NCBI GenBank assembly: GCA_001418405.1
Contig: LIQL01000071.1
Location: 1 to 64,000 of the forward strand
Length of the DNA stretch: 64,000 nt
Direction: 5' to 3'
Origin: Streptomyces diastatochromogenes
GTDB lineage: Bacteria; Actinomycetota; Actinomycetes; Streptomycetales; Streptomycetaceae
Part shown: positions 38,530-42,028 of the stretch, piece by piece
Layout: every line of letters starts with the position of its first letter
Numbering within the stretch: position 1 is the first letter of the stretch
Program-made: the position numbers and the translations under genes
The notes under the pieces: generated by a model
Databases searched by the model: none
What the model was told of the DNA's origin: nothing
The model's input: the letters and a program-made list of their open reading frames with translations, nothing else

Positions 38530-40206
38530 ATGGCACAGGCCACCGACGCAACGCGGACCGTCATCCTGACGGTGGACGACGACCCGGGTGTCTCCCGTGC
38601 CATCGCCCGCGACCTGCGGCTCCGCTACGGCGACGGCTACCGGATCGTCCGTGCCGAGTCCGGCGCATCCGCGTTGGAGGCGCTGCGCGAGCTGAAGCTG
38701 CGCGGCGACCTGGTGGCCGTGCTCCTCGCCGACTACCGGATGCCGCAGATGAACGGCATCGAGTTCCTCGAACAAGCCCTCGGCGTGTACCCGGGGGCGC
38801 GGCGCGTGCTGCTGACCGCCTACGCCGATACCGACGCCGCCATCGACGCGATCAACGTCGTCGACCTCGACCACTATCTCCTCAAGCCCTGGGACCCGCC
38901 CGAGGAGAAGCTGTACCCGGTCGTGGACGATCTCCTCACGGCCTGGCGGTCCAGCGACTACCGGCCGGTACCCGCCACCAAGGTGGTCGGGCACCGCTGG
39001 TCCGCCCCCTCCTCGCGGGCGCGCGAATTCCTGGCCCGCAACCAGGTGCCGTACCGCTGGTACTCCTCCGACGAGCCGGAGGGACAGCGGCTTCTGGCGG
39101 CGGCCGGGGCCGACGGTCGACGACTCCCCCTGGTGATCACGCCGGACGGTACCGCGCTGATCGAGCCGGAGCCGACCGAACTGGCCGCCCACGTGGGGCT
39201 CGCGACCACGCCGACCGCCGCGTTCTACGACCTCGTCATCATCGGCGGAGGCCCGGCCGGACTCGGCTCGGCGGTGTACGGGGCCTCCGAGGGGCTGCGG
39301 ACCGTACTGGTCGAACGGTCGGCGACGGGCGGACAGGCCGGACAGAGTTCCCGCATCGAGAACTACCTCGGTTTCCCGGACGGCGTGTCCGGTGCGCAGC
39401 TGACCGATCGTGCCCGCCGCCAGGCGAGCCGCTTCGGTGCCGAGATCCTCACCGCTCGCGAGGTCACGGGGCTGGAGGTGAACGGTCCGGCGCGCGTCGT
39501 GCGCTTCTCCGACGGCTCGGCGGTCGCCGCGCACAGCGTCATCCTGGCGACCGGAGTGTCGTACCGGCAGTTGGGGGCGCCGGGATGCGACGAGCTGACC
39601 GGCTGCGGGGTGTACTACGGCTCGTCCCTCACCGAGGCGTCGTCCTGTGAGGGCCAGGACGTCTACGTCGTCGGCGGCGCGAATTCCGCCGGGCAGGCGG
39701 CGGTGTTCCTGGCGCGGGGCGCGAAGTCGGTGACCATGCTGGTGCGCGGGGAGTCCCTGACAGCGTCGATGTCGTACTACCTGATCCAGCAGATCGACGA
39801 GGCCCCGAACATCACCGTGCGGCCCCGGACCGTCGTCGAGGAGGCGCACGGCGAGGAGCACCTGGAACGGCTGACCCTGCGGGATACCGTGACCGGCGGC
39901 ACCGAAGTCGTCGATGCCCAGTGGATGTTCGTCTTCATCGGTGCCGCCCCGCTGACCGACTGGCTCGGCGGGACTGTGCTGCGCGACGAGAACGGCTTCA
40001 TCCTGGCCGGGCCGGATTTGACGCCGGACGGGCGCCCCCCTGCCGAATGGGCACTGGACCGGCCGCCCTACCACCTGGAGACCAGCATCCCGGGTGTGTT
40101 CGTGGCGGGCGACGCACGCGCCCGGTCCGCGAAGCGCGTGGCGTCCGCCGTGGGAGAGGGAGCCATGGCCGTGATGCTCGTCCACCGCTTCCTGGAGCAG
40201 TCATGA
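38530..40206 (+). CDS. Response regulator fused to glutaredoxin-like and thioredoxin-reductase-like domains
   Basis: This 558-residue fusion has three parts. Residues 10-140 are a CheY-type receiver with DDD at 16-18, phosphoacceptor Asp68 in LLADYRMP and Lys119 in LLKPW. Residues 150-225 look like a glutaredoxin/thioredoxin fold in which the expected CxxC is Ser158-A-P-Ser161. Residues 232-558 are an FAD/NADPH oxidoreductase of thioredoxin-reductase type (IIGGGPAGLGSA, later GVFVAGDAR) in which the redox CATC is replaced by GSSL (364-367, after CGVYYG). It is therefore unlikely to reduce disulfides. The ATG has GGAGG 4 nt upstream and the stop overlaps the next gene as ATGA. Databases name relatives fused response regulator/thioredoxin-disulfide reductase. 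Phospho-control of a flavin-based output is an inference. Confidence 0.92.
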   Translation: MAQATDATRTVILTVDDDPGVSRAIARDLRLRYGDGYRIVRAESGASALEALRELKLRGDLVAVLLADYRMPQMNGIEFLEQALGVYPGARRVLLTAYADTDAAIDAINVVDLDHYLLKPWDPPEEKLYPVVDDLLTAWRSSDYRPVPATKVVGHRWSAPSSRAREFLARNQVPYRWYSSDEPEGQRLLAAAGADGRRLPLVITPDGTALIEPEPTELAAHVGLATTPTAAFYDLVIIGGGPAGLGSAVYGASEGLRTVLVERSATGGQAGQSSRIENYLGFPDGVSGAQLTDRARRQASRFGAEILTAREVTGLEVNGPARVVRFSDGSAVAAHSVILATGVSYRQLGAPGCDELTGCGVYYGSSLTEASSCEGQDVYVVGGANSAGQAAVFLARGAKSVTMLVRGESLTASMSYYLIQQIDEAPNITVRPRTVVEEAHGEEHLERLTLRDTVTGGTEVVDAQWMFVFIGAAPLTDWLGGTVLRDENGFILAGPDLTPDGRPPAEWALDRPPYHLETSIPGVFVAGDARARSAKRVASAVGEGAMAVMLVHRFLEQS

Positions 40207-41678
40207 GCGCACAGGTCATGGCCTGCGACCCGCACGAGATCGGCTCGCTGTTCCTCTTCGAGAAACTCTCCCCGGAGCAGCTCGGACGGCTGTGCTCCGA
40301 GGGACGGATGGAACGGTTCGAACCCGGCCCGGTGTACACCGAGGGCGACCCGGCGACCTGCTTCTACGCGATGGTCGAGGGGACCGTCGTACTGTCCCGC
40401 CGGGTCGGCGGCGACGATGTGGAGGTCAGCCGGACCTCGCAGCGCGGCGTGTACGCGGGGGCCATGCAGGCGTATCTGGGCGACCAGGTCCCGCAGACGT
40501 ACCTCAACTCGATGCGGGTGACCGAACCGACCCGGTTCTTCGTACTGCCCGCAGAGTCGTTCGCGAACGTGATGCGGGAGTGGTTCCCGATGCCGACGCA
40601 CCTGCTGGAGGGGCTCTTCTTCGGCTCCAAGAACACCCAGCGTGCCGTTGGCCAGCGGGAACGCCTGCTGGCACTCGGGTCGTTGTCCGCCGGTCTCACC
40701 CACGAGCTCAACAATCCGGCCGCGGCCGCCGTCCGCGCCACCGCGGCGCTGCGCGAGCGGGTCGGCAGGATGCGGAACAAACTGTCGGTGATCGCCCAGG
40801 GCCGCTACTCCCGCGAGGCCCTCGCCGAGCTCATCGAGATCCAGGAACGCACCGCCGAACGCGTCGCCAAGGCACCGGTGCTGACCCCTCTGGAGACGTC
40901 CGACCGGGAGGACGAACTCGCCGACTGGCTGGAGGAGCACGGCATCCCGGAGAGTTGGCGGATCGCGCCGACCTTCGTGCAGGCCGGGCTGGACACGGAC
41001 TGGCTGGACCAGGTCGCGGCGACCGTGGGCGACGACATCCTGCCTGCGGCGATCGGCTGGCTCAACTACACGGTCGAGACCGAGCTGTTGATGGACGAGA
41101 TCGACGACTCCACCACCCGCATCTCCCACTTGGTGGACGCGGCCAAGCAGTACGCGCAGCTCGACCGCGCCCCGCACCGGGACGTCGACGTCCACGAACT
41201 CCTCGACAGCACGCTGCTGATGCTGTCCGGCAAGATCGGCTCTCGGGTGCGGGTGGTCAAGGACTACGACCGCTCCCTCCCCGAAGTACCCGCCTACCCG
41301 GCGGAACTCAACCAAGTGTGGACCAACCTCATCGACAACGCGGTGGCCGCCATCGGCAGCACGGGCCACGACGGCACCCTGACGGTCCGCACGGCCAGGC
41401 AGGGCGACCGACTCCTCGTGGAGTTCCGCGACACCGGCCCCGGCGTCCCCGAGGACATCCGCAGCCGCATCTTCGACCCCTTCTTCACCACCAAGCCCGT
41501 CGGGGAGGGCACTGGCCTCGGCCTCGACATCTGCTGGCGGATCGTCGTCAACAAGCACCACGGCAGCCTCCAGGTCGAGTCCGTACCGGGCGACACGCGC
41601 TTCCAGGTGCTGCTACCGCTCACCGCCCCCGAGACCGAGACCGAGGCCGCAACCACGACCACCGAGGAGTCCGTATGA
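40203..41678 (+). CDS. Soluble histidine kinase with N-terminal CRP-like sensor domain
   Basis: This 491-residue protein opens with a cyclic-nucleotide-binding-like beta barrel (residues 15-130: FEPGPVYTEGDPATCFYAMVEGTV-type). A dimerisation/phosphoacceptor helix follows with His167 in SAGLTHELNNP, and a C-terminal HATPase carries an N-box NQVWTNLIDNAV, DTGPGVP and GEGTGLGLDI. No membrane segment is present, so it senses a cytoplasmic signal. The N-terminal barrel lacks an obvious PRAAT-type cAMP site. Start and stop overlap both neighbours as ATGA, so the kinase, the receiver fusion before it and the zinc finger after it form one translationally coupled unit. The receiver Asp68 is the probable phosphotransfer partner. 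Confidence 0.92.
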   Translation: MSAQVMACDPHEIGSLFLFEKLSPEQLGRLCSEGRMERFEPGPVYTEGDPATCFYAMVEGTVVLSRRVGGDDVEVSRTSQRGVYAGAMQAYLGDQVPQTYLNSMRVTEPTRFFVLPAESFANVMREWFPMPTHLLEGLFFGSKNTQRAVGQRERLLALGSLSAGLTHELNNPAAAAVRATAALRERVGRMRNKLSVIAQGRYSREALAELIEIQERTAERVAKAPVLTPLETSDREDELADWLEEHGIPESWRIAPTFVQAGLDTDWLDQVAATVGDDILPAAIGWLNYTVETELLMDEIDDSTTRISHLVDAAKQYAQLDRAPHRDVDVHELLDSTLLMLSGKIGSRVRVVKDYDRSLPEVPAYPAELNQVWTNLIDNAVAAIGSTGHDGTLTVRTARQGDRLLVEFRDTGPGVPEDIRSRIFDPFFTTKPVGEGTGLGLDICWRIVVNKHHGSLQVESVPGDTRFQVLLPLTAPETETEAATTTTEESV

Positions 41679-42028
41679 CCGACATCGACGGCATCGCGGC
41701 GAGCGTCCCGCCCAGCAGTACCGGCTGCGCGGACTGCGACGCGGCGGGGGGCTGGTGGTTCCACCTACGGCGCTGCGCGCAGTGCGGCCACATCGGCTGC
41801 TGCGACTCGTCACCGGCCCAGCACGCCACCGCCCACTGGAAGTCCTCCGGGCATCCCGTGGTGCAGAGCTTCGAGCCGGGTGAGGAGTGGTACTGGAACT
41901 ACGCCACCGACGTGCTGTACGAGGCCGGACCGGAACTGGCACCGCCGACCAGCCACCCGGCCGCACAACCGACCCCGGGACCGGCCGACCGTGTCCCGCG
42001 GAACTGGCCGGACCTGCTGCACCCCTGA
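41675..42028 (+). CDS. UBP-type zinc finger domain protein
   Basis: This 117-residue protein is essentially one UBP-type zinc finger. Cys18, Cys21, Cys34, Cys37, Cys42 and His50, His54, His60 supply the ligands in the bacterial pattern CxxC, CxxCGxxGCCDSSPxxHAxxH, followed by SGHPVVQSFEPGEEWYWNY. A Pro-rich tail follows. In eukaryotes such fingers bind ubiquitin C-termini; the bacterial role is unknown. Coupling to the kinase and the receiver-flavoprotein suggests it is part of the same signalling complex. Its start overlaps the kinase stop as ATGA. Confidence 0.9.
   Translation: MTDIDGIAASVPPSSTGCADCDAAGGWWFHLRRCAQCGHIGCCDSSPAQHATAHWKSSGHPVVQSFEPGEEWYWNYATDVLYEAGPELAPPTSHPAAQPTPGPADRVPRNWPDLLHP

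Follow-up and report, generated by a model that had tools for sequence, protein, structure and literature searches.

A soluble two-component gene trio in Streptomyces diastatochromogenes with a putative dithiol-free flavoenzyme as its output

What can a flavoprotein of the thioredoxin reductase (TrxR) fold be doing when both of its dithiols are gone, a receiver domain precedes it and its gene overlaps that of a histidine kinase? The question is raised by three plus-strand genes in a 64,000-nucleotide stretch of Streptomyces diastatochromogenes DNA (the window): g1, encoding the flavoprotein (38530..40206, 558 aa), g2, encoding a soluble histidine kinase (40203..41678, 491 aa), and g3, encoding a zf-UBP zinc finger protein (41675..42028, 117 aa). 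The stop of g1 and the start of g2 overlap as ATGA (40203..40206), as do the stop of g2 and the start of g3 (41675..41678), and a GGAGGA lies just 5' of the g1 ATG; these coordinates and the twofold overlap, first described in a sequence-only reading of the window, were correct on re-reading. We lean towards the view that the trio is a soluble two-component system whose output would be a phosphorylation-gated NAD(P)H flavoenzyme without a dithiol, with the finger as a probable adaptor.

The g1 protein is composed of a receiver (residues about 6–128), a glutaredoxin (Grx)-like domain (about 150–228) and a C-terminal TrxR-like domain (230–558). The first and last are recognized by Pfam as Response_reg (12–124, 54.2 bits against a cut-off of 30.2) and Pyr_redox_2 (233–544, 105.8 bits against 26.1). 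The Grx-like region has no Pfam match at E 0.1, is alignable to cysteine-bearing Grx-type domains of relatives and shows a β-α-β-α-β-β-α order in the structure model. With this AlphaFold model (mean pLDDT 88.7), Foldseek placed AhpF and TrxR first, the top match being 4xvg (AhpF). The protein matches TIGR01292 (TrxB) with an E-value of 2.4e-64 and a score of 217 that does not reach the cut-off of 343.45, and TIGR03140 (AhpF) with 156.5 bits against a cut-off of 502.9. The residues of the FAD-binding GxGxxG and the C-terminal GD (G239, G241, G244, G527 and D528) are invariant in 40 aligned members. When aligned with relatives, an S-x-x-S motif (S158 and S161, codons at 39001..39012, plus strand) occupies the columns of the Grx CxxC, and G364-S-S-L367 (39619..39630, plus strand) occupies those of the TrxR CATC.

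The missing cysteines were followed through relatives of the Grx-TrxR core in 296 genomes drawn evenly from the phylum to which the window belongs. The resulting list had 103 flavoprotein places, of which 98 were read, the window included (two from G141 and one each from G259, G206 and G052 were left out), and 97 were aligned, the window among them, after the frame-broken L127 was set aside. At most four candidates per genome were scored for the flavoprotein list and five for a later one, so extra copies may be missed, and because contig ends truncate some loci the adjacency counts given below are lower bounds. None of the 73 receiver-fused and none of the 14 CRP-fused members has a cysteine at any of the four catalytic columns, one CRP-fused member (L157) being cut and readable at only two of them; at the TrxR CxxC columns neither cysteine occurs in the 86 readable members with an input domain, the 87th being the same cut L157. 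Among the ten members without a detected input domain, nine have all four cysteines and the tenth (L152) has none. In a rapidly computed maximum-likelihood tree, with the genome's TrxB as root, the nine cysteine-bearing proteins split from the 88 cysteine-less ones with an SH-aLRT of 100, so the loss is an old, fixed trait of the family and no peculiarity of the window. The cysteine-less family is present in 62 of the 296 genomes and also occurs in other phyla. The proposal that g1 is not a disulfide reductase despite its database names is borne out by the absent CATC and CxxC and the unreached TIGR01292 cut-off, with an amendment as to the names: in the records viewed only CRP-fused relatives are called thioredoxin-disulfide reductase, an annotation that their own sequences contradict, while window-type proteins are named FAD-dependent oxidoreductase.

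At 19 positions at least 95% of the cysteine-less clade share one residue, and the cysteine-bearing clade either differs in at least 80% of its members or has no counterpart. These positions include Y363, Q389, M414, Y417, R536 and H552, and several lie in the NAD(P) domain and beside the old active site, a pattern that would suit a new function or a new active site better than decay. The loci L158–L166, in which a Grx-TrxR fusion keeps both dithiols and has no detected input domain, form the earliest branch on the tree and possibly encode an NADPH-glutaredoxin reductase in one chain. A second relative in the window's own genome (L168, G000:C221 19554-20203) also lacks CATC; it lies at a contig end and is split over two frames.

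The g2 kinase joins a CRP-like barrel (residues about 15–137; cNMP_binding, PF00027, 44–125, 30.6 bits against a cut-off of 27.5) to an HELNNP H-box and a HATPase domain (HATPase_c 367–474, 84.9 bits against 26.4), in keeping with the earlier description of a cytoplasmic kinase with a CRP-like barrel. H167, which heads the H-box (codon 40701..40703, plus strand) and is the predicted phospho-donor, is a histidine in 100% (rounded) of 129 aligned kinases, and H167, N375, N379, G412, G414, G434, G436, G438 and G440 are each conserved in at least 95% of them. The window's barrel reads GAMQAYLGDQVPQTYLNS in place of the phosphate-binding cassette GE...PR[ST]A; a looser pattern is found in 21 of the 129 kinases, and those of L102, L105 and L108 look real by eye. 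The absence of a cAMP-type cassette suggests that the ligand of g2 is probably other than cAMP. The idea of a shared sensor, in which the kinase barrel would be the barrel fused to the enzyme in relatives, was rejected: with a kinase-barrel profile the genome's best Crp-type protein scores 84 bits and the fused barrels 42–80, which indicates no special kinship.

Kinase and flavoprotein appear to be nearly inseparable. The named loci are the 80 top-ranking among 588 confirmed candidates, all from Actinomycetota. In 79 of them the kinase barrel starts less than 300 bases from the g1 stop, and in the remaining one (L288) it lies about 1.3 kb further away. In the even draw a kinase at E<=1e-50 occurs in 36 of the 296 genomes, and all 36 also carry the flavoprotein. 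The pair is found on Deinococcus, Caballeronia and Nostoc plasmids as well, where the gene tables used for neighbourhoods, which are incomplete, annotate no finger within 5 kb. This distribution leaves chance as no serious rival for a near-obligate g1/g2 pair, and the case for these two genes is stronger than the sequence-only reading, confirmed in its observation of the trio, could have known. In five loci (L085, L087, L089, L090 and L091) two or three CRP-barrel kinases stand in tandem behind one receiver-flavoprotein.

The receiver tells the same story at the level of residues. Of 119 kinase-paired members, 117 have its full acid pair, Asp, Thr and Lys (DDDTK), one reads EDDTK and one runs off its contig, and D68 (codon 38731..38733, plus strand), the predicted phospho-acceptor, is an aspartate in all 118 readable kinase-paired receivers of both sets. 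In the even draw D68 is kept in 38 of 38 readable paired members and in 14 of 33 readable orphans (34 orphans in all); L104 was counted as an orphan though other kinases adjoin it, and L094, in which a contig end truncates the kinase, was manually assigned to the paired group. On the simplest reading, a D68 that is intact in paired members and eroded in orphans points to a receiver kept for phosphate from this kinase. The proposal of a two-component system with a flavin/NAD(P)H fold as its output is upheld in that the receiver DDDTK, the H-box and the N and G boxes are all present. At L104 (5992-11672) the receiver of the flavoprotein is intact, and receiver-kinase and hybrid-kinase frames stand where the CRP kinase would be.

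The g3 protein matches zf-UBP (PF02148) over residues 18–79 with 50.3 bits (cut-off 22.7). In 27 aligned fingers C18, C21, C34, C37, C42, C43, H50, H54 and H60 are invariant, and in the pocket region W28 is kept in at least 90%, W72 is invariant and positions 74 and 76 are mostly aromatic. Given that the structure model (mean pLDDT 68.9) is too weak for a fold search, alignments with PDB 2ida and USP5 were used instead. The match to 2ida, a zf-UBP structure deposited as a hypothetical protein and presumably RPA1320, covers residues 9–91 with an E-value of 1.8e-25; g3 differs from it in a C-terminal tail that is common to several other actinobacterial copies. Aligned to USP5, g3 has His39 at the position of an arginine that we take to be carboxylate-binding.

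The finger often accompanies the pair but is not a fixed part of it. It is the third gene in 35 of the 80 named loci and is missing from the other 45, one of which (L286) ends 71 bases past the kinase, so the expectation of a conserved trio was right for the g1/g2 pair and wrong for the finger as a constant member. A zf-UBP gene occurs anywhere in 48 of the 62 genomes with the cysteine-less family against 20 of the 234 others, and in none of the ten genomes assigned to the cysteine-bearing form (nine read; G052 assigned by similarity only). Of the 88 cysteine-less members, 19 have the finger no more than 2.2 kb away (14 of the 39 paired, 1 of the 34 orphans and 4 of the 14 CRP-fused proteins), and among the ten members without a detected input domain, one of them cysteine-less, none does; at least nine listed finger places were left unread. 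In L102 (4328-6085, minus strand) one open frame encodes a CRP barrel, a histidine kinase and, at the kinase C-terminus, a zf-UBP domain, the barrel there keeping a cAMP-type cassette, GEMALLQQEPRTA. In Agrobacterium pusense and Paraburkholderia phymatum the finger adjoins an enzyme of the g1 family, and no kinase was seen beside them; as the finger also accompanies kinase-less forms, its partner may be the enzyme. We infer that the finger belongs to the system, whether its partner is the enzyme or the kinase.

In the mechanism that we favour, the CRP barrel of g2 would sense a cytoplasmic ligand, the kinase would autophosphorylate on H167, and the phosphate would pass to D68 of g1. There it would gate a FAD/NAD(P)H flavoenzyme of the TrxR fold, in which the dithiols of the Grx-like and TrxR-like domains would long ago have been replaced by a different, conserved active site, and which would use NAD(P)H to reduce something other than a disulfide, whether O2, a quinone, a metal or a second protein. 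The g1 protein would in this way work like a response regulator with an enzymatic output. The finger is envisaged as an adaptor that brings a client or other partner to the complex, with stress or proteostasis as the probable setting.

Several observations weigh against this mechanism or limit its reach. The pTM of the g1 model (0.74) makes the arrangement of the domains unsure, though the folds of the single domains are reliable. Where the genome's own TrxB has HRRxxxR, which we take to be the NADPH motif of thioredoxin reductase, g1 reads VRGESLT, and across the family the first arginine of the motif is retained and the second and third are mostly lost; this weakening makes the use of NADPH by g1 unsure, and the cofactor may be NADH instead. 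The HisKA match of g2 is weak (16.3 bits, under the cut-off of 26.9). The named loci are nearest relatives and not an even sample. The 39 kinase-paired flavoproteins form one side of a single branch on the tree (SH-aLRT 95), hence the changes of D68 in the even draw, 10 among orphans and 0 among the 38 readable paired members, form a single contrast, in which the many losses all fall on the same side. The association of the finger with the cysteine-less family (Fisher p 1e-26) is uncorrected for kinship, and a finger missing from so many named loci is not essential.

The physiological setting is suggested by relatives and not by the window, where the nearest neighbours of the trio encode an NAD(P)-binding NmrA-like protein, a cupin and a short-chain dehydrogenase. 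At three plasmid loci (L325, L327 and L328, on NZ_CP118324.1, NZ_CP104318.1 and NZ_CP086600.1), which belong to the genera Nocardia, Rhodococcus and Streptomyces (named here alphabetically), grpE, a dnaJ-type gene, cbpM, clpB and trxA are followed by a zf-UBP gene and an enzyme of the g1 family. In two of the three, dnaK borders the stretch. The Rhodococcus sequence shows the CRP fusion directly, and the Streptomyces plasmid has it by annotation. Close relatives of the same chaperone-island genes occur at L143, and DUF1931 follows the island in L325, L328 and L143. This island is often carried on plasmids. Our best guess for the setting is stress and protein quality control. A bolder extension, which we think unlikely as a whole, is a multi-phylum module in which phosphorylation would switch a thiol-free flavoenzyme and the UBP finger would deliver proteins by their C-terminal tails, making it a non-thiol redox arm of protein quality control; in it, the riding of a one-component CRP-fused enzyme and finger with DnaK-GrpE-DnaJ-ClpB-TrxA on plasmids would mean that the chemistry acts on proteins under stress.

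Among the alternatives to a gated enzyme, the one that survives best is a pseudoenzyme: g1 would bind FAD and NAD(P)H to read the redox state and serve as a phosphorylation-controlled scaffold whose output is binding, with no electron acceptor. The loss of both dithiols, the weakened NADPH motif and the genetic linkage of the finger (a binding module, and in one locus part of the kinase itself) all fit such a scaffold. The 19 positions fixed against the cysteine-bearing clade suggest, to the contrary, that chemistry has been retained, and we regard a pure scaffold as possible but doubtful.

Considerably less probable is a chance neighbourhood of unrelated stress genes, with the finger as part of a cation/proton antiporter system. 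The zf-UBP match on a Deinococcus plasmid (L326 2201-4288) does overlap the end of a gene annotated as a cation:proton antiporter, and a 616-aa protein, presumably an antiporter, recurs beside 11 of 61 fingers situated away from the trio. For the pair, this explanation is largely refuted by the adjacency of g1 and g2 in all but one of the named loci, and for the finger it has to contend with the uneven distribution of zf-UBP genes between genomes with and without the cysteine-less family and with the kinase-finger fusion in L102.

No likelier is the protein-tagging link that the sequence-only reading had raised as a possibility, taken here as a ubiquitin-like or Pup-like bacterial tag whose tail is of the GG type. 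The zf-UBP fold family binds C-terminal tails in eukaryotes, and g3 keeps W28, W72 and the mostly aromatic positions 74 and 76 of the pocket region. The link is nevertheless unsupported, as His39 stands at the USP5 arginine position and as the finger is found next to the enzyme in Agrobacterium and Paraburkholderia, neither of which is known to have ubiquitin or Pup. Apart from the kinase and the finger, moreover, no conserved neighbour occurs in more than 14 of 121 loci, most clusters there having no identification, and the commonest (14 loci) is presumably a DUF4032 protein. Least probable of all is a thioredoxin- or glutaredoxin-type disulfide reductase working through other cysteines or an external thiol protein, a reading that the overall TrxR similarity and the trxA that accompanies the CRP-fused relative on Rhodococcus, Nocardia and Streptomyces plasmids would favour and that founders on the absence of the four catalytic cysteines from all 87 members with an input domain, the sub-cut-off TIGR01292 score and the lack of any substitute column with cysteine in over 30% other than 373 (41 of 88 cysteine-less members).

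How much of this is new can be judged against known systems. A census of response regulators with enzymatic outputs names a "Mycobacterium-like combination" of receiver and thioredoxin reductase (PMC5847659), the same domain pairing as in g1, so the fusion itself is not new; the passages of that census available to us are silent on lost cysteines, a partner kinase or a finger. We found no account of the cysteine loss, the kinase or the finger in the open-licence literature, and the earlier label of an undescribed complex accordingly holds for these and not for the fusion. If the proposed mechanism is true, phosphorylation would control a flavoenzyme directly and not transcription, and bacterial UBP fingers would gain a genetic partner. 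CRP-type barrels on a kinase or a flavoprotein, as in the trio and its relatives, are also known from CNB-histidine kinases and CNB-pyridine-nucleotide oxidoreductases, whose cassettes, in the part of the source consulted, read GELSLLTGGPRSATVRA and GEMGLISGRRRGATVRA (PMC2246266); they differ from the window in these cassettes and in having the flavoprotein N-terminal to tandem barrels.

The TrxR-like ferredoxin/flavodoxin-NADP reductases provide, as far as the consulted portion of the source goes, a precedent for a TrxR fold from which electrons can go to a protein acceptor and not to a disulfide (PMC10294844); they are less similar to g1 (E 2.8e-18 for 5xhu, where the best TrxR reaches 1.8e-46), and g1 adds a receiver. 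TrxB (TIGR01292) shares with g1 the FAD and NAD(P) double Rossmann fold and the domain order, with 24–36% identity to the solved TrxRs listed. It differs in that g1 has no CATC, carries receiver and Grx-like domains in front, has a weakened HRRxxxR and possesses fixed residues of its own, such as Y363 and H552. AhpF resembles g1 in placing a thioredoxin-fold part ahead of a TrxR-like module, yet its N-terminal thioredoxin-fold part is a tandem, whereas g1 has a single Grx-like domain and lacks CxxC in both parts. By the features compared, the trio is a two-component system and neither a thioredoxin reductase nor an AhpF.

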